Shown here one piece after another: positions 1 through 7,180 of a DNA stretch of 7,180 bases (its first letter is position 1; each line of letters begins with the position of its first letter). Below the pieces are notes generated by a model that searched no databases, was not told the origin of the DNA, and saw only the letters and a list, made by a program, of their open reading frames with translations. The DNA is from Nostoc sp. CHAB 5834 (GTDB taxonomy: Bacteria; Cyanobacteriota; Cyanobacteriia; Cyanobacteriales; Nostocaceae). A program made the translations under genes and the position numbers. The stretch lies in NCBI GenBank assembly GCA_020829485.1, contig JAIVFU010000232.1:1-7180 (forward strand). The letters run 5' to 3'.

Positions 1-1
1 G

Positions 2-82
2 ATTGGTGGTATTCAAGCTAGAGGGGAAAAAGGAAACTACAGTACACAACGTATTAAATTTAGCTCTAACAGTTCTGGTTAA
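2..82 (+). CDS. Possible 3' end of a gene entering from the left edge (26 codons)
   Basis: From base 2 a reading frame stays open for 26 codons and stops at TAA 80-82. Its peptide ends in NYSTQRIKFSSNSSG, which is plausible as the polar tail of a protein, and the sequence becomes strongly AT-rich and stop-dense straight after it. No family can be recognised from so short a piece. Another frame is open somewhat longer, to about base 170, but its composition (F, Y, L, V from AT-rich codons) looks like non-coding DNA. The call rests only on the change of composition at the stop and is weak. Confidence 0.3.
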   Translation: MGGIQARGEKGNYSTQRIKFSSNSSG

Positions 83-336
83 CTTTTCGTTACATAGTTA
101 TGATTTTTCCTGCCGACTTACTTATTTCAACATAAGTTATTTTTATTTCTACAGAGTATAAAACCATCAAACATCTAGCTAAAAAGGTGGTAGTATTTTC
201 TGGAATCTATATTTGTGGATTTGTAGCTTTATAAAGATTGTAAATAGTACGATTCATCAAACCCTTCTCTTTATTAATAGGGGAACTTCAGTGTTATGGA
301 TGAAAAAAAAGAAACGCTTTTATATATCTTGTGTTT

Positions 337-439
337 TACAGCACTTCCGCCAGCTATGAGGTACATCCTCAAATCTGAAAGCTTTGATAGGAGAGGGCAA
401 GGAGAAAAACTGTATTGCATAATAGCCGGAAGCGCTGTA
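337..439. repeat. MITE-like palindromic element with 13-bp terminal inverted repeats
   Basis: The left end TACAGCACTTCCG (337-349) and the right end CGGAAGCGCTGTA (427-439) are inverted copies matching at 12 of 13 positions. The similarity continues weakly inwards (left GCTATGAGGTAC, right arm reading GCTATTATGCAATAC on the other strand). The unit is about 103 bp, carries no transposase, and begins and ends in TA. These are features of a non-autonomous miniature element or a decayed repeat. Both arms resemble, from memory, a motif dispersed in Nostoc-type genomes, but I cannot confirm copy number from one window. Confidence 0.5.
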
Positions 440-552
440 TAAGAACCGAAGATGAGTCAGGCAAAGGAATTATATTCAGTTCATTGTGAAATTGAAGCTT
501 AACCGCATGATGCAGTTAGGTAAGCCGAGCATCTACAAAATAGCAGACTAAT

Positions 553-587
553 ATACCGCTCCAATCAAGTATTGGTGTATCTTTTTT
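553..587 (+). terminator. Possible intrinsic terminator
   Basis: CCAAT (561-565) pairs with ATTGG (571-575) around a 5-nt loop. Outside an asymmetric bulge, ATAC (553-556) pairs with GTAT (577-580), and a run of six T follows at 582-587. The stem is short and AT-rich, so it would be a weak terminator. No gene of known identity ends just upstream; it could serve a small RNA or a transcript from the left. Confidence 0.35.
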
Positions 588-738
588 CGATTCATGCAAA
601 AAAGCCCCCCGTAACACATAAATTCTGTCAATAAACAAATTGATGATTTTTCTAAAATCTGCATAAATAGCTAAAAATCAGCAGATAAGACAGTTAAGGG
701 GAACCCTAATTTTGAGTCTTTAATTCGAGCAAAGCGAC

Positions 739-767
739 TTGACGCATTGAACGTAAATTCTCATATC
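739..767 (+). promoter_or_regulatory. Weak promoter candidate upstream of the oxidase-peroxidase operon
   Basis: TTGACG (739-744) is a good -35 match and is followed after 17 bp by CATATC (762-767), a poor -10 match. A better -10-like TATATT at 773-778 is badly spaced from any -35. If used, the promoter would give a leader of roughly 150 nt. This is pattern matching only; sigma preference cannot be judged. Confidence 0.25.
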
Positions 768-775
768 TTGGATAT

Positions 776-790
776 ATTTCAATATGAAAT
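776..790. promoter_or_regulatory. Small dyad, possible operator
   Basis: ATTTCA (776-781) and TGAAAT (785-790) form a 6-bp perfect inverted repeat separated by three bases, just downstream of the candidate promoter. Its position would suit a regulator site. Dyads this short arise by chance in AT-rich DNA, so support is weak. Confidence 0.2.
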
Positions 791-922
791 CAGGCTCAAA
801 ATTTATTCCAATAAACGTGTCTATTGTGTTATTCAGAATCAAAAAATGGAGGTAGATAACATCGTAGTTTTTCTCATAAAGACTGCTTTCATAGATTTCA
901 AGTTGTCAATCTAATAATCAAT

Positions 923-3523
923 ATGCCATTACCAAAATTAGCTAAATTCCTTAATCCATCAGGTGAACCTGTAATAGCACCAGGTGGTATTCAGGATACA
1001 TCATTCAATCGTGATGCCCTTTCCAGGTTTGTTTGCAATACCCTAGATGAAGCTTTAGCAGCCGTACCAGGTGGCTTTGACATTATTATAGTTGGATCGG
1101 GAATGTATGGCGCATATTTTGCAACCGATATATATAACAAAACAAAGAATTTTGGGTCTGGTCGTCCTCGCCCTAAAATTTTAGTTCTTCAAGAAGGCCC
1201 ATTTTTGATTCACGAACATTTCCAAAACCTACCTTTGGGATTAGGAGGACTTTATGAATTACCTCTTGCCAATCTTCTACCTGAAGGACAATATCGAATC
1301 ATTAACGTAAATGGTACATCAGAGGGACAAGGAGTTCCATTTGGACGCGATTTTGCCGGAAAATTCCGACCTCATCATCGTTGTGTTGGTGGGAAAGGTC
1401 TTTTTTGGGGTGGTTGGTCTCCTTCCTTGACTACTGCTGATTTGGTTCAATGGCCAAACTCAGTCTCTGCATTCTTGAAGAGCGAACAGGGCTATAATTT
1501 TATCACTCAAGAAATTGGCGCAGATTACGATATTGATCGGCGTGGCAAAGAAGAGGACTTTATCTATGGCGGACTTTACGAAGCTTTACTCAAACGCTCT
1601 CGTAAATTAACTCCATTCAACATCCCAGTAGATAGTTATTCAATTGATCGTGTGCTTCAACCACCGATCGCAGTCAAAGTTGAATCTGAATTATCCGGAT
1701 TGTTTAGTCCAGATAAATATAGCAGTCTACCTGGTCTTTTGAGTGCGATTCGGGAGGATGTAGGAAGGTCAAACAATAATGATCAAGATCGCTATCTATT
1801 TTTAGTACCAAACGTTACTGTCCTAAATTTAGAAACACAAGAGGGAGTTGTCCGAGGCATAAGAGTTGCTGTTAATGACCCAGTTGATGCAGGCGAGATA
1901 GTTCAAAACATTACAGTTCCTGAGCAAGGGATGGTAGTTTTAGCCGCTAATTGTGTTAATTCAACCCGCATAGCCAGAAACTCTTTCCCTCGCCCAGCGT
2001 TACTTACAAAAGAACGTATGGGAGCTAACCTGATGGTTCATATCCGAGGTAATTATCTTTGGAAGATACGCCGTACCCACCTCGAAAGTTTACCTATCTT
2101 AGAAGAAGAAGGATTGTTCAAAGATATCTTCAAAGATAAAGTTTTACAGCAGGCAGCTTTACAGATTGAGGGTACAGCAACAGATTTAAACTCCAATAAC
2201 CTCACTGGACGCTTTCACTTCCAATTTTACGCAGCACCCAATGCTGGCAATAACGCCGAGTACTCTCTTTATCAGATGATACCCGATCGCGATGACCTAC
2301 TTGAGAAAGCCCAACAACTAAAAGGTGAGCCAGATGCCGATGAATGGATCACCGTAGGGATAAGAACTTGTGGGGAAGATTTCGGCGACAAAGAAGCGCC
2401 AGTAGAATATAGCGGGGTACGTAGTGCCAACACTAGTTGGATGGATACCAGCCCCTCAGCTAAAGACCGTTTTGGCAACCCAGAAGGCTATGTTCAACTT
2501 GTGGAAACGGACGAGGTATTGAAACTTCGTAATGCACAGAGGGCAGCAGCTTTCCAATTCATTGCTCGGTTAGCCAATGTTACCGTTGAAGAAGCTGGCA
2601 AAAGACAGGGTGAACCTAACGCTAATCCCAATATCATACTTGTTGATGCTGTTGAAGACGGCTTAGGAACTACTTATCACGAGTGCGGTACTCTTTGGAT
2701 GGGGGAAAATCCAGAGACATCTGTAACTGATGTGCATGGACGCTTTCATCATGTTGCCAATGCTTATTGTGCCGATCAGTCCTTGTTCCCCACAGCAGGT
2801 TCAGCGAATCCTGTGCCGACAGGGTTAGCGCTGGCTCGTAAAGTAGCTTTAGGTATTACTGAGCGATATCAAGAAGAAAAGCCTTTTGAAGACAAAGATG
2901 GTGATTTTCAATCTCTCTTCAACGGTAATTTTCCTGGTGTATGGCGTTCTGTTGGGTCTGCTAACTTTACACCCTTACAGCCTTTAGGTCAGCCTCCTAT
3001 TATTGAAGCAGGAAAAGCTGGCGCAGATAGTGTTTTAGGCTTGCTCTATTATCAACCGAAGCAATTCAAAGATTTTGTTCTGCGTCTAGAGTGGAAAGCC
3101 TTTTCTATACGTGCGAACTCTGGAATATTTTTACGTATCCCAGATCCTACAGGAAAATCCCTTGACAACTCTTTCTATGAAGCTTGTACAGAAATTCAAA
3201 TCGATGAAACTGGGAAGAATTATCGAGATGATAGAAATCCTCAATCAATATTTGGGGGATTCCGTGAGAAGACAGGTGCAATTTATACTCTTGCTCCCGC
3301 AGCACAGGGTATGAGTAAGGTAATCCGTCCCAGATTTACAGCTGATGGGCCTTGGAATGTTTACGAGATTACTGTTCAAGGCGATTCGATTGTCGTAGTT
3401 CTTAATGGTGAGAAAGTATCTAACACTACTATTGCTGCACCAAAGCAGAGGGAAGGTTATATAGCCCTACAATGCCACACCGAAATTGTTCAGTTTCGCA
3501 ATATCCGCATTAAAGAATTGTAA
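923..3523 (+). CDS. GMC-family FAD oxidoreductase fused to a C-terminal DUF1080 (3-keto-glycoside hydrolase-like) domain
   Basis: An 866-aa two-domain enzyme. Residues about 50-650 form a GMC/pyranose-oxidase-like flavoprotein. It has the FAD dinucleotide motif VGSGMYG (57-63), an acidic residue after the second Rossmann strand (E91), the loop GGKGLFWGGW (156-165), and a C-terminal catalytic block with H586 (YHECGT) and N629 (SANPVPT), the usual GMC His/Asn pair. Residues about 660-866 match DUF1080 (PF06439): an LFNG-like opening, NSGIFLR (732-738), EIQID (757-761), TGAIY (784-788), WNVYEI (811-816), LNG (827-829) and the closing LQCH...FRNIRIKEL. Family knowledge: GMC enzymes oxidise alcohols or sugars, often with O2 to give H2O2; DUF1080 members hydrolyse 3-keto-glycosides. 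No signal peptide is evident, so cytoplasmic. ATG 923 is the first in-frame start after a stop at 857-859; it has no clear Shine-Dalgarno. It leads an operon with a peroxidase 19 bp downstream. The substrate is unknown; a GMC dehydrogenase using another acceptor remains possible. Confidence 0.9.
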   Translation: MPLPKLAKFLNPSGEPVIAPGGIQDTSFNRDALSRFVCNTLDEALAAVPGGFDIIIVGSGMYGAYFATDIYNKTKNFGSGRPRPKILVLQEGPFLIHEHFQNLPLGLGGLYELPLANLLPEGQYRIINVNGTSEGQGVPFGRDFAGKFRPHHRCVGGKGLFWGGWSPSLTTADLVQWPNSVSAFLKSEQGYNFITQEIGADYDIDRRGKEEDFIYGGLYEALLKRSRKLTPFNIPVDSYSIDRVLQPPIAVKVESELSGLFSPDKYSSLPGLLSAIREDVGRSNNNDQDRYLFLVPNVTVLNLETQEGVVRGIRVAVNDPVDAGEIVQNITVPEQGMVVLAANCVNSTRIARNSFPRPALLTKERMGANLMVHIRGNYLWKIRRTHLESLPILEEEGLFKDIFKDKVLQQAALQIEGTATDLNSNNLTGRFHFQFYAAPNAGNNAEYSLYQMIPDRDDLLEKAQQLKGEPDADEWITVGIRTCGEDFGDKEAPVEYSGVRSANTSWMDTSPSAKDRFGNPEGYVQLVETDEVLKLRNAQRAAAFQFIARLANVTVEEAGKRQGEPNANPNIILVDAVEDGLGTTYHECGTLWMGENPETSVTDVHGRFHHVANAYCADQSLFPTAGSANPVPTGLALARKVALGITERYQEEKPFEDKDGDFQSLFNGNFPGVWRSVGSANFTPLQPLGQPPIIEAGKAGADSVLGLLYYQPKQFKDFVLRLEWKAFSIRANSGIFLRIPDPTGKSLDNSFYEACTEIQIDETGKNYRDDRNPQSIFGGFREKTGAIYTLAPAAQGMSKVIRPRFTADGPWNVYEITVQGDSIVVVLNGEKVSNTTIAAPKQREGYIALQCHTEIVQFRNIRIKEL

Positions 3524-3528
3524 AACAC

Positions 3529-3533
3529 GGAGA
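3529..3533 (+). promoter_or_regulatory. Ribosome binding site of the DyP peroxidase gene
   Basis: GGAGA lies nine bases before ATG 3543, within the 19-bp gap after the oxidase stop. It supports ATG 3543 as the true start and translation from a shared mRNA. Confidence 0.6.
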
Positions 3534-3542
3534 ATATAAACT

Positions 3543-5123
3543 ATGCCATTAGATTTAACGACCAATTCAGGGCCAATTGATCAAGATAATCCCAAAATTG
3601 CAGATGTTCTCAAGGACTTACAAGGAAACATCCTTAACGGGCATGGACGAGATCATGCTGCCCATATTTTTATCGCCTTCGATAAACCCAATCAGATCGA
3701 AAACGTCAAAAAGTGGATTGCTAGATTAGACGTTACTTCAGCTAAAGCCCAATTGGATGGAACAGAACGCTATAAACGAGAGAAAGTTGATGCGGGTTTA
3801 TTTACCCATTTTGCTTTGAGTACTAGTGGTTATGCTCGTCTCGGCATCCCAGTAAACAAAATACCTACAGGAGCAAACCCACAAAAACGAACAGCTCCAT
3901 TTTACGCCAATACTTTTCAAGAAGGAATGAAAAATCGTGCCTCAGTTCTTCTTGATCCGCCTACGAGTAACTGGGAAAGTGGATTTCAAAACTCAATTGA
4001 TGCAGTTTTGCTCCTTGCTAACGATGATCCGGCGGAATTAATCGCTCAGGAAATTAAAATTCTTGAACAACTCAAAGATATCGCCACAGTCAGAACCATC
4101 GAGCGTGGGTTTACCTTACGACGCAAATTTGATACTGTCGATACGACTAACCCTAGTAATGAGTTCGGTGTAGTTGTCGAACACTTTGGTTATGCTGATG
4201 GTGTTAGTCAACCTATCTTTCTAAAAAAACAGTACGAACGAGAGAAAAGCCTAAAAGGAACTCGTTTCTGGGGACCAGATGCTCCTTTAAAGTTGGTTTT
4301 AATTCCCGACCCAAATGGCAAGACGGCAGACGTTAGTTTTGGCAGTTTCTTAGTTTTTCGCAAACTCGAACAGAATGTGCAAGGTTTCAAAACTGCTGAA
4401 GCTAAGTTAGGAGAAAGCTTAGGACTGCCAAGAGAATTAGCAGGAGCGATGGCGGTGGGACGTTACGAGGATGGTTCACCTATTGTCCTGCAACCTGGTG
4501 ACGGTGCTTGGGCGAACACAAACAAACCCGCTATCCCCAACGATTTCAATTATCAAGGTGATAAGTTGGGTTTGACTTGTCCTTTTCATGCCCATATCCG
4601 TAAAAGTAATCCCCGATTGGAATCTGTGAAAGCAGATGGTCCTTTCGCTAAGTCGAAGGAGGAAGAACTAGGACACAGAATTGCTCGACGTGGTATTACC
4701 TATGGAGGACCTCTCAGCAGTTCTGATAATTTAGATGATCTTCCCACCAATGGAGTTGGATTACTTTTCATGTGCTACCAATCAGATATCTGGGAGCAGT
4801 TTGAGTTTATTCAGCGTTTTTGGTGTAATAATCCCAACTTCCTTGAACCTGGTATTTCTGGTGGCACAAATCCAAACTATGATAAAACGGGATTAGACGC
4901 GGTTATCGGTCAAAAACTGGGTGAGCAAGCCGATCCAGTGATTAATGAAGCTCCTAAACCCCCAAAAAATTGGCCATCACAGTGGGGGAAATCTACAGTC
5001 AAGCCCGAAATTCCCGACGAAAATCAATTTGGTCAATTTGTCACTCTCAAAGGTGGGGAATATTTTTTCTCTCCTTCGATTAGTTTTTTAAAAAATCTCA
5101 GTGGTAGTTCACCAAGCAAATAA
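3543..5123 (+). CDS. DyP-type haem peroxidase
   Basis: A 526-aa dye-decolourising peroxidase that uses H2O2 to oxidise aromatic or other donors with a b-type haem. Diagnostic motifs are in order: DLQGNIL (25-31) at the start of the first ferredoxin-like domain; GYADG (216-220), the GxxDG motif with catalytic D219; FRKLEQ (272-277) with the likely distal R273; CPFHAHIRKSNPR (346-358) with the likely proximal haem ligand H351; RRGITYG (382-388); FEFIQRFW (420-427); and GGEYFFSPSIS (504-514) near the C-terminus. The length fits the longer DyP classes (C/D, now V), which include an Anabaena enzyme. There is no twin-arginine or Sec signal and no encapsulin-targeting tail that I can recognise, so cytoplasmic location is inferred. 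It follows the oxidase gene by 19 bp with its own ribosome binding site, implying co-transcription and use or detoxification of peroxide made by that enzyme. The physiological donor is unknown. Confidence 0.95.
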   Translation: MPLDLTTNSGPIDQDNPKIADVLKDLQGNILNGHGRDHAAHIFIAFDKPNQIENVKKWIARLDVTSAKAQLDGTERYKREKVDAGLFTHFALSTSGYARLGIPVNKIPTGANPQKRTAPFYANTFQEGMKNRASVLLDPPTSNWESGFQNSIDAVLLLANDDPAELIAQEIKILEQLKDIATVRTIERGFTLRRKFDTVDTTNPSNEFGVVVEHFGYADGVSQPIFLKKQYEREKSLKGTRFWGPDAPLKLVLIPDPNGKTADVSFGSFLVFRKLEQNVQGFKTAEAKLGESLGLPRELAGAMAVGRYEDGSPIVLQPGDGAWANTNKPAIPNDFNYQGDKLGLTCPFHAHIRKSNPRLESVKADGPFAKSKEEELGHRIARRGITYGGPLSSSDNLDDLPTNGVGLLFMCYQSDIWEQFEFIQRFWCNNPNFLEPGISGGTNPNYDKTGLDAVIGQKLGEQADPVINEAPKPPKNWPSQWGKSTVKPEIPDENQFGQFVTLKGGEYFFSPSISFLKNLSGSSPSK

Positions 5124-5137
5124 GGACTCTAAAAGTC

Positions 5138-5189
5138 GGGTAAAGGGGAAAGGCAAAAGGTGAAGGGTTTCTACTTTTTCCCTTTACCC
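5138..5189 (+). terminator. G/A-rich hairpin after the peroxidase gene (terminator or short repeat)
   Basis: GGGTAAAGGG (5138-5147) pairs perfectly with CCCTTTACCC (5180-5189). After a one-base bulge, AAAGG (5149-5153) continues the stem against TTTTT (5175-5179). The hairpin begins 14 bp after the stop codon of the operon, a natural place for a terminator, but no T tract follows. The left arm and loop are made of degenerate purine-rich units, like the short repeats scattered in filamentous cyanobacterial spacers, so it may be a repeat that also stops transcription. Confidence 0.5.
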
Positions 5190-5222
5190 CTTACTCGAAT
5201 AGCACTAAGAAAAGCTAAAAGC

Positions 5223-5387
5223 CTTACCAATCAAGCAGTTTGTAATTGTTTACATCATTTCGATGTGGTGATGTATGAAAAATTACTGAGAAAAATTAAG
5301 AAGGCGCTGGTTGCTGATGGAAGAGTGATAGTTTTTGACTTTATTCCTAATGCTGATAGTATTACGCCGCCTCTAAGCAGTAACTAA
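5223..5387 (+). pseudogene. Remnant of a SAM-dependent O-methyltransferase
   Basis: About 54 codons resemble the middle of the methyltransferase domain of dimerising O-methyltransferases. LTN and CLHHFD match the usual LTNFLHHFD segment, EKLLRKIKKAL the next helix, DGRVIVFDFIPNAD the following strand and loop, and ITPP the turn after it. A full enzyme is around 330-350 aa. Here the N-terminal half, including the SAM glycine motif, and the C-terminal end are missing, and the frame stops at 5385-5387. Within the match, extra residues (QAVCN) disturb the LTN-LHHF spacing. The frame could be opened by GTG 5160, but that codon lies inside the hairpin and the residues it adds do not look like protein, so a functional start is unlikely. 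It is read as a decayed fragment, perhaps left by a rearrangement. Confidence 0.65.
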
Positions 5388-5715
5388 TGCCTTTAATTCC
5401 TCAGTTCTTAATCTTGTCCCATAGGATGTAACAATCGGCATACTACGACGAGCGTAATCAACTGGTTGCAGACGTATTTGACGACCACGGCCAGGAATTT
5501 ATTAAGTTCCGAAATGGTAAAGAAATTCTAGTTGACACTGCTTATAAGTGGGGATGGGAGCGAGTCGCAGATTATGCGTCCCCGTTTTCAGTAAGTAATT
5601 CGTTGCTTGGCAGTATCAATGCAAGGGAATCTTGATATACACCTTCTGCATTAGTAGACAAGCACAGTCTAGCAGCAATCGCTTTAGCTGCACATATTCT
5701 GAGGCAGTGTGATTT
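5388..5715. other. Gene-poor gap with unassigned open fragments on both strands
   Basis: No complete gene is supported. On the plus strand, 5432-5635 is open for 67 codons after a stop, without an early ATG, and reads like protein in part (FDDHGQEFIKFRNGKEILVD, then KWGWERV). On the minus strand, the frame of the neighbouring gene stays open for 47 codons past its stop, down to 5572. A separate minus frame (5387-5510) contains a 22-codon ATG-started piece beginning MPIVTSYGTRLRTEELK. The fragments overlap each other, so not all are real. The best reading is eroded gene debris next to the methyltransferase remnant. Confidence 0.5.
5432..5635 (+). pseudogene. Unidentified protein-like fragment, 67 codons
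   Basis: This frame runs from just after TAA 5429-5431 to TGA 5633-5635. It has no ATG at its beginning and no ribosome binding site. The peptide is acidic and aromatic, with segments such as LVADVFDDHGQEF, KFRNGKEILVDTAYKW and GWERVADYA, which look more like folded protein than random translation. I do not recognise a family. Taken with the methyltransferase remnant just upstream, it may be the 3' end of another truncated gene. The alternative is a chance open frame opposite a minus-strand frame. Confidence 0.3.
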
Positions 5716-6912
5716 TTACCTTTCCCAATCAACCAACGCCCCATCAACAATCGCAATCTCCCACTGAGGATATTTCGCCAACAATTTCTTGATTACAATC
5801 TGCAAAGCCGGATCATCATTCCAGCACTCTTGCAAAAAGTCAAAACCCGGATTCTCGCCCGAATTGCTTGCTACTTTGAGTTTCTGCATACGCTTAGGCC
5901 GCATATTCGACCTCGCAACAATCGCCTCTTGCGACCACTTTTCAGCATTTGGCACGGGCGGCGCGGAACTTTCACCCTCATCAACTGCTTTAATTTCTAC
6001 ACCCGAAACTGAATTTTCAACCGACAACAAAGCGGAATTACTTTGTTCTACTTGCCTCTGTGTTTGATTAGCGATCGCCGAACTTGAAGAAAATTCATTT
6101 TGGGCAACGGGCGCGGCGGAATAACCACCTTCATGACAACCTTTCAGCTCAACGCCACAATCTTGAGTTTCAGCCAACAACGAAGTAGATTCACCCTGTA
6201 CAGCATCCACAAGCGCTAGCGTCGTGCAGTCCCTTGCCATAGGCAACTCTTTCTCTTTCTCTGACACGCCTTGAACAAACTGAGGCGACGCGACCCCCAA
6301 GGGAGCGATCGCCGCCTCACAAGAGTGCGAAATTTCGGTAAGTGTGTCAGAGATACACCTCACAATCTCTTTTGAAGAGATTGTGAGGTGTTCCTGAATA
6401 GTTCGTGAGAGTTTTTGAAACCCTTGCTCTGAATGACTTTGACCTAAAATAGATGCTTCATACAAAGCACCCATTTCTTCAGAGCCAGCATCTTTATCTG
6501 AAATCTCAGCATTTGGTTCTCGTTTTAGAGAATCTGGTTGCTGATTTTGAGAATTAGCTTTCTCCCAAAACTCCTTCATCCGGCTACCATGCAAATTCTT
6601 CACCATCCAGCTAGCCGTTTCTCGGCCGTCTTGAATCGACTTGTCGGGTTTGAAAATGAACAACCCGCTTTCTGAGAGAATTTTCTTCGCAGAGATAAAA
6701 GTACTGTACCCCAAACCAGAAGCCAAAGGCATCCACCGAGAACCGTAGGGGTCAGCCGTCCAACACTCTTGCCACAATTGCGTAACTGATGGCTTTTGTT
6801 GCGATACCCACAACAAATCTTCTATGGGAATAATCACATGAAGCCGCTTATACGGTGATTGTGCTTTATCAGCAGTCTTTTTGAGCTTGGGTCTTGTGAT
6901 AGTTGTGGTCAT
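5716..6912 (-). CDS. Cyanobacterial protein of unknown function, probable winged-helix N-terminus with repeat-rich linker
   Basis: A 398-aa soluble protein without signal peptide or membrane segments. After a basic N-terminus (1-23), residues about 24-115 are compact. IPIEDLLWV, TQLWQECW, GSRWMPLASGLG and STFISAKKILSESGLFIF suggest a winged helix-turn-helix (recognition helix near 70-82, wing after it), as in replication or regulatory DNA-binding proteins; this is inference from pattern. Residues 120-350 are a Ser/Glu/Gln-rich, probably disordered linker with two related units (about 243-273 and 292-324, sharing GVE-[L/I]-K, EG, and SA-x-PV or SAPPV). Residues 357-398 form a second ordered patch, and its QECWNDDP (361-368) echoes QECWTADP (48-55). 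ATG 6912 is preceded by AGGAGA at ideal spacing. The gene is convergent with the operon. It contains both HIP1 sites and unusual palindromes in the linker. I recognise the N-terminus only as a cyanobacterial hypothetical family; a plasmid or island replication role is a guess. Confidence 0.8.
   Translation of the reverse strand: MTTTITRPKLKKTADKAQSPYKRLHVIIPIEDLLWVSQQKPSVTQLWQECWTADPYGSRWMPLASGLGYSTFISAKKILSESGLFIFKPDKSIQDGRETASWMVKNLHGSRMKEFWEKANSQNQQPDSLKREPNAEISDKDAGSEEMGALYEASILGQSHSEQGFQKLSRTIQEHLTISSKEIVRCISDTLTEISHSCEAAIAPLGVASPQFVQGVSEKEKELPMARDCTTLALVDAVQGESTSLLAETQDCGVELKGCHEGGYSAAPVAQNEFSSSSAIANQTQRQVEQSNSALLSVENSVSGVEIKAVDEGESSAPPVPNAEKWSQEAIVARSNMRPKRMQKLKVASNSGENPGFDFLQECWNDDPALQIVIKKLLAKYPQWEIAIVDGALVDWER
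5941..6039 (-). repeat. Second copy of internal protein repeat in the linker
   Basis: Codes residues 292-324, with the pattern NSALLSVEN, then GVEIKAVDEG and SSAPPVPNAE. It parallels the copy at 6094-6186 with an offset of about 50 residues. DNA identity between the copies is low, so the duplication is old or maintained at protein level. Confidence 0.5.
6071..6078. repeat. HIP1 octamer
   Basis: A perfect GCGATCGC, the highly iterated palindrome of many cyanobacterial genomes. It lies within the coding sequence of the 398-aa protein and supports a cyanobacterial source. Confidence 0.9.
6094..6186 (-). repeat. First copy of internal protein repeat in the linker
   Basis: Codes residues 243-273: TSLLAETQ, then GVELKGCHEG and YSAAPVAQNE. 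The shared core with the second copy is LL, GVE, K, EG, SA and PV in the same order and nearly the same spacing. Confidence 0.5.
6258..6353. repeat. 10-bp inverted repeat enclosing a HIP1-containing hairpin
   Basis: TCTCTGACAC (6258-6267) and GTGTCAGAGA (6344-6353) are perfect inverted copies. Between them, GAGGCG (6282-6287) and CGCCTC (6313-6318) close an inner imperfect hairpin with ACCC/GGG pairing and a perfect HIP1 site (6305-6312). The inner unit encodes EAAIAPLGVASP. Its GC-rich, HIP1-bearing character differs from the flanking AT-rich code and resembles a small dispersed repeat inserted in frame. Confidence 0.5.
6305..6312. repeat. HIP1 octamer
   Basis: The second perfect GCGATCGC in the window. 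It forms part of the right arm of the GC-rich hairpin at 6282-6318. Confidence 0.9.
6355..6391. repeat. Perfect 17-bp inverted repeat with 3-nt loop inside a coding sequence
   Basis: The arm at 6355-6371 (ACACCTCACAATCTCTT) is exactly complementary to 6375-6391 (AAGAGATTGTGAGGTGT), with the loop TTG at 6372-6374. In the minus-strand mRNA it would be a very stable stem about a third of the way into the gene, encoding residues 174-186 (EHLTISSKEIVRC). No stop or frame change occurs. A perfect stem of this length is not expected by chance in coding DNA. Confidence 0.9.
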
Positions 6913-7180
6913 TTTACAATCTCCTGTTATGTTGACGCACGGAAATTTCCCCCACTGTGATGCGGGGCTTGGTACTTCTATTCGTTTGTCTAAAAAGTTA
7001 CCGATTCACTGAAAATCTATTGAGGTTGCCAGAATCTTAATTCATCTCGGAAATAGACACGTCCTAAAACTCACAAGCCAATATTTACAAGGCTTTGAGA
7101 CCAAACCTTGCAGACTTGTTTTCAACGTAGCAATCAGCATTTGATATAGTTACCGATAGTTTAGAGGATAAAGATAGAAT
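6913..7180. other. Upstream region of the 398-aa protein gene
   Basis: No credible gene is seen; frames on both strands are 30 codons or shorter. It holds a small hairpin (CAAGGCTTTG 7088-7097 with CAAACCTTG 7102-7110, one bulge), a CCCC/GGGG pairing around 6950-6966 close to the gene start, and a direct repeat AGTTACCGAT at 6996-7005 and 7148-7157. No clear promoter could be chosen. Confidence 0.5.
6920..6925 (-). promoter_or_regulatory. Ribosome binding site of the 398-aa protein gene
   Basis: AGGAGA on the minus strand lies seven bases before the ATG at 6912. It is the best Shine-Dalgarno match before any gene in the window and fixes the start. Confidence 0.8.

Follow-up and report, generated by a model that had tools for sequence, protein, structure and literature searches.

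A GMC flavoprotein-DUF1080 fusion in Nostoc sp. CHAB 5834 and its recurrent DyP-type peroxidase neighbor: a tentative two-gene oxidative module

Could a single bacterial protein both oxidize a glycoside and cleave the product? The question arises from a 7,180-nucleotide stretch of Nostoc sp. CHAB 5834 (contig JAIVFU010000232.1, positions 1 to 7,180; the window), in which the initial annotation placed a GMC flavoprotein oxidase and a DUF1080 3-keto-glycoside hydrolase-like domain on one polypeptide. The frame and Pfam bear this out. One open frame on the plus strand (923 to 3523) encodes 866 amino acids (aa) from an ATG, with PF05199 (GMC_oxred_C) at residues 514 to 638 (positions 2462 to 2836; 61.7 bits against a cutoff of 24.6) and PF06439, the DUF1080 or 3-keto-disaccharide hydrolase-like family, at residues 661 to 864 (positions 2903 to 3514; 113.1 bits against a cutoff of 26.8). 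The second match covers profile positions 1 to 187 of 187, and the domain, earlier called near complete, is complete. Directly downstream on the same strand lies a gene for a DyP-type heme peroxidase of 526 aa (3543 to 5123), overlooked in that annotation, which is the strongest clue to how the fusion works.

An assembly or frame artifact or a chimera was ruled out, because both domains are present in 119 of the 120 homologs listed among 212 found by protein search, and copies with 97 to 100% protein identity across residues 1 to 866 occur in three other Nostoc/Desmonostoc assemblies. The exception in the list is a 728-aa entry (P0015) whose longest contig has 3,090 bases. At the DNA level, the window is 99.3% identical to Nostoc sp. 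KVJ20 (locus L003) over positions 324 to 5688, 98.1% identical to Desmonostoc muscorum (L001) over 438 to 5647, and 96.6% identical to Nostoc sp. UCD121 (L002) over 438 to 3523; beyond these stretches there are merely shorter or weaker matches to the three loci. No megablast match to a close copy on a plasmid was found in the PLSDB set. Among 73 loci recovered from genome contigs, a GMC frame is present in 72 (the list of open reading frames of L049 contains none), and both domains are present in 56. The fusions come from Cyanobacteriota, Pseudomonadota, Actinomycetota, Planctomycetota, Acidobacteriota, Myxococcota, Chloroflexota, and Verrucomicrobiota, and such homologs, with the copies in other assemblies, rule out a protein unique to strain CHAB 5834. 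Neither is it common in cyanobacteria: a sample of 388 genomes from the class to which KVJ20 belongs contains only three with full-length matches, KVJ20 itself (G001) included. Some match was found in 261 of the 388, the weaker ones listed covering mostly the C-terminal GMC region. The fusion is thus widespread across phyla but sporadic in distribution. A further module in KVJ20 (L008) has diverged, with 48% identity to L003 in the alignment. Public names include "family 16 glycoside hydrolase" and "Domain of Unknown Function (DUF1080)/GMC oxidoreductase", so the architecture is visible in annotation.

Residue conservation was counted in 64 locus sequences, 54 of them fusions; frames of 540 aa or less were excluded, and the split loci L062 and L065 therefore lie outside the 54. 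The flavin adenine dinucleotide (FAD)-binding motif GSGMYGA (residues 58 to 64, positions 1094 to 1114) keeps G58 and G60 in all 64 rows. The proposed catalytic-type pair had been placed correctly: H586 (2678 to 2680) and N629 (2807 to 2809) are both kept in 63 of the 64 sequences, the remaining row being gapped there, and stand 43 residues apart, against 44 in PsG3Ox (H440/N484, PMC10646112). GGKGLFWGG (residues 156 to 164, positions 1388 to 1414) is a probable FAD-contact loop and, by eye, looks like the pyranose oxidase flavinylation motif given in PMC10646112. Within this loop, 51 rows have F at position 161, 12 have Y, and one has A. Unlike fungal pyranose oxidases, the fusions have, by eye, F or Y at the flavin-linking His position. 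GMC_oxred_N (PF00732) is not listed by Pfam at an E value of 0.1 for the FAD-binding half, yet the predicted model aligns to GMC structures there, superposing on them over about residues 42 to 651. The GMC_oxred_C match, the His/Asn active-site pair, and the predicted fold together place the protein in the GMC superfamily. The four best fold matches are titled C-glucosyl oxidoreductase, C-glycoside oxidase, and, twice, pyranose 2-oxidase, in line with the pyranose-oxidase-like kinship suggested initially. The fusion shares the GMC fold and the FAD site with C-glycoside or glycoside 3-oxidases and pyranose oxidases (7dve, 7qva, 8qve, 9fl2), but is just 15 to 18% identical to them in structural alignments and differs in its C-terminal DUF1080 domain and its pairing with a DyP.

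For the DUF1080 half, the initial annotation had proposed a comparison of structure and residues with solved relatives. The predicted model matches the fold of solved 3-keto-glycoside eliminase/hydratases, which are among its nearest folds; as for residues, the core positions are invariant and, in alignments read by eye, the fusions lack the His-containing HPDA loop seen in the BT2157 group. Ten positions of the domain are the same in all 54 fusions. The E757-x-Q759-x-D761 core (3191 to 3205) is found in all 54, and H852 (3476 to 3478) is H in 51, Y in two, and gapped in one. Eliminase/hydratases of the BT2157 group (3osd, 8rr2, 9fbe, 8tda, 8v31) have PF06439 and the fold in common with the fusion, with 27 to 30% identity in structural alignments, and share N732, E757, Q759, Y788, W811, and H852 in the printed alignments. 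D761, T784, and G785 are unshared, and the fusion differs further in being joined to a presumed oxidase and in having no recognizable signal peptide.

The peroxidase gene follows the fusion after a 19-bp gap (3524 to 3542) containing a ribosome-site-like GGAG stretch, read by eye. Its product passes the Pfam cutoffs for DyP_N (30.0 bits against 27.5) and Dyp_perox_C (22.6 against 20) and falls just short of that of NCBIfam TIGR01413 (93.2 against 100.5; E value, 1.8e-26). The best solved relatives are Alr1585 (5c2i; E value, 1.7e-100), which we take to be AnaPX of Anabaena, and DyP2 (4g2c; E value, 2.1e-79), presumably the Amycolatopsis enzyme. The GxxDG motif (GYADG, 4188 to 4202) is found in 16 of 16 fusion-adjacent DyPs, as is GHRIxRR (GHRIARRG in the window, 4671 to 4694), which includes H378, presumably the proximal His. 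The fusion-linked DyPs, at 526 to 664 aa, are longer than Alr1585 and DyP2, and 11 of the 13 scanned with Pfam (those of L001, L003, and L015 were not among them) carry C-terminal LysM domains; all 11 are cyanobacterial, and the two lacking them are from L013 and L027. Pfam finds no LysM in the window DyP. No signal peptide was apparent by eye in the LysM-bearing DyPs of L002 and L010 (L010:10676-12622).

How regular is this neighborhood? A same-strand DyP adjoins the fusion in 16 of the 56 fusion loci; where no less than 4 kb flanks the fusion on each side, the figure is 14 of 41. In a tree of the 65 rows, out of the 72 GMC-frame loci, that have more than 430 aligned GMC residues, all 16 fall inside one clade of 28 fusions (support, 100/98). 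They comprise 14 cyanobacterial loci, one from Mycobacterium with a 9-bp gap, and one from Polyangiaceae; in L015 and L027, the order is reversed, with the DyP first. Thirteen contig sizes are common to two 120-row homolog listings, an independent hint of linkage in which some agreements may be coincidental. The DyP_N profile gave eight matches in five of 10 whole genomes, which is an undercount, because the fusion-adjacent DyPs of L003, L013, L015, and L027 escaped it. Even with several DyPs per genome of 4 to 12 Mb, chance should only rarely put one within a kilobase of a fusion. The fusions of L002 and L003 share 97% identity, but the DyP that follows in L002 differs (57% identity); L002 matches the window closely in DNA exactly as far as the fusion stop codon (3523), after which it has a LysM-bearing DyP. 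On these sequences, the partner in L002 seems to have been exchanged.

No third gene common to the fusion and DyP loci was found. Five cyanobacterial loci encode a conserved protein of about 95 aa between the fusion and DyP genes (L004:3508-3834, L008:10580-10864, L009:10955-11359, L019:10413-10700, L066:10568-10852); the one copy tested, from L008, matches no Pfam family. Bradyrhizobium fusions, which have no DyP beside them, are often near, and mostly downstream of, a separate PF06439, DUF1259-type, DUF6815, or HbpS-like protein (L031:6479-7183, L031:3141-4109, L031:1366-2484, L029:7293-7820, and clustered relatives). One of each kind was scanned with Pfam and the others were assigned by BLAST cluster, within the fetched flank.

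We propose, tentatively and at somewhat less than even confidence for the whole, a two-gene oxidative module of three steps (taken as positively correlated): glycoside oxidation, cleavage on the same chain, and consumption of the resulting H2O2 by the DyP. The protein has no recognizable signal peptide. Its GMC domain would bind FAD noncovalently, use His586 and Asn629 to oxidize a sugar or glycoside at a secondary alcohol, and pass the electrons to O2, yielding H2O2; that it is a sugar or glycoside oxidase is probable. The DUF1080 domain, at slightly better than an even chance catalytic, would take the keto-sugar product and cut its glycosidic bond by elimination and hydration. The DyP, in view of the gene linkage, is likely the peroxide sink of the fusion and may spend H2O2 on a second, perhaps aromatic, substrate such as the released aglycone, while also removing peroxide. 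What is observed is the architecture, with its predicted folds, conserved residues, and recurrent DyP neighborhood; the flavin-dependent oxidation with O2, keto-sugar formation, elimination and hydration, and H2O2 use are inferred from the protein families. Oxidation at C3, the identity of the substrate, and any channeling are guesses. A bolder version, in which a self-contained oxidative glycosidase drives its own peroxidase, deglycosylation of aromatic glycosides being coupled to DyP oxidation of the released aglycone and Rieske-inserted homologs sending their electrons elsewhere, we regard as unlikely.

Several observations weigh against the module. In 40 of the 56 fusion loci, including 11 of 11 Bradyrhizobium fusions and cyanobacterial L006, L016, L021, L058, and L059, the retrieved flanks (8 kb at most, less where a contig ends) show no DyP. 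The correlation between fusion and DyP distances is only moderate (Mantel r, 0.416; 79 of 9,999 permutations as high), and this, with the apparent exchange in L002, makes vertical inheritance alone an insufficient explanation of the linkage. Seven GMC-only relatives without a DUF1080 domain form a clade (L024, L034, L036, L037, L038, L039, L073; support, 100/97); 10 rows were labeled GMC-only, of which three (L044, L051, L056) run off the contig with a flank of 0 and seven end inside it. The near-identical copy in L003, the only one used for this hydropathy check, shows no signal-peptide-like hydrophobic N terminus in its first 45 residues, so the source of a glycoside is unclear. Elsewhere, hydropathy is high in L025 (2.31), a frame probably started too far upstream, and middling in L052 (1.59) and L064 (1.39), in a rough scan in which several frames begin too early. 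In the GMC half, the sugar oxidases are nearly tied in fold score with choline oxidase (28.7) and fructose dehydrogenase (28.6), which trail the best match by no more than 1.4 Z units, and the score for NCBIfam pyranose_ox (the equivalog TIGR02462) is 19.9 against a cutoff of 544.9. For the DUF1080 half, the best structural match, 3s5q (21.4), is merely a putative glycosyl hydrolase, the HPDA loop is missing, and the available text of PMC11032199 also places DUF1080 domains on the periplasmic side of transmembrane kinases, which suggests binding roles.

The DUF1080 domain might accordingly be a noncatalytic carbohydrate-binding module that brings the GMC part to a glycan, leaving a plain H2O2-producing oxidase to feed the DyP. 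We consider this rather doubtful, since the DUF1080 fold scores 2 to 5 Z units better against 3-keto-glycoside eliminase/hydratases than against CBM66 and lectins, and 10 invariant positions are, in our judgment, beyond the needs of a loosely selected binding module. The oxidase might instead act on a nonsugar alcohol such as an aryl alcohol, with binding or another role for the DUF1080 domain. Aryl-alcohol oxidases supply H2O2 to fungal peroxidases, and the DyP neighbor would fit such an arrangement, as would the nearness of choline oxidase, hydroxymethylfurfural oxidase, and others to pyranose oxidases in fold score and the scores of the fusion far below the cutoffs of named NCBIfam GMC families. 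Two points make it improbable: 56 of the 72 GMC-frame loci encode the GMC part attached to a domain with a sugar-acting fold, and the four best fold matches bear the titles given above.

The remaining rival takes the GMC domain for a dehydrogenase whose electrons go to a carrier instead of O2, with the DyP linked for another reason, such as heme or aromatic metabolism. In its favor, a Rieske iron-sulfur domain is inserted in the GMC part of four fusions (P0119, P0121, L045:3157-6036, L053:7773-10835); PF00355 is listed for P0119 and P0121, and all four have a CTH...CPCH motif. The fetched flanks of both such loci, L045 and L053, contain no DyP, which suggests that Rieske-inserted fusions without a DyP use another electron outlet. 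The Caulobacter LacABC lactose 3-dehydrogenase also lends it support (PMC9007349, in the text available). Against it, the window protein has no Rieske-like motif, and a peroxidase partner that recurs even where seemingly exchanged points to peroxide; we hold the dehydrogenase reading to be decidedly improbable.

Elsewhere in the window, a 75-aa frame (5160 to 5387, plus) has a weak O-methyltransferase match below the cutoff (E value, 0.0074) and is possibly a gene remnant. A 398-aa frame (5716 to 6912, minus) matches no Pfam or NCBIfam family; although the main match of L003 to the window stops at 5688, L003 has three stretches that match parts of this frame at 79 to 83% DNA identity.

Besides classical glycosidases, glycosides can be cleaved by a route that passes through 3-keto intermediates. 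The closest described pair, so far as the available text of PMC9007349 goes, is Caulobacter LacABC and the DUF1080 protein CCNA_01705, with close-set genes and an oxidation followed by a proposed DUF1080 step, which agrees with the initial statement that known pathways mostly encode the two steps separately. In contrast to the fusion, these are separate proteins proposed to work in the periplasm, LacABC is a membrane-bound periplasmic dehydrogenase, and that text mentions no DyP. Our literature search returned no paper combining two of DUF1080, 3-keto-disaccharide hydrolase, and GMC oxidoreductase, with most subscription papers outside its scope, which makes it weak evidence of absence; in the papers searched that mention DUF1080, the word GMC is absent from the main text. 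No such module was described in the titles and abstract openings of papers that link DyP and cyanobacteria to pyranose oxidase or GMC oxidoreductase. The parts are known, and on this weak evidence the fusion with its recurrent partner has no experimental account in the literature searched.

The 3-keto routes described in the literature consulted use separate oxidoreductases and lyases or hydrolases, whereas the fusion would put oxidation and cleavage on one chain. The locus makes testable the role of PF06439 domains outside the BT2157 group and the origin of H2O2 for bacterial DyPs, and aromatic plant glycosides would be reasonable first substrates in Nostoc-type cyanobacteria. If the proposed module is real, the recurrent DyP neighbor would be a bacterial peroxidase with a dedicated peroxide supply driven by sugar.
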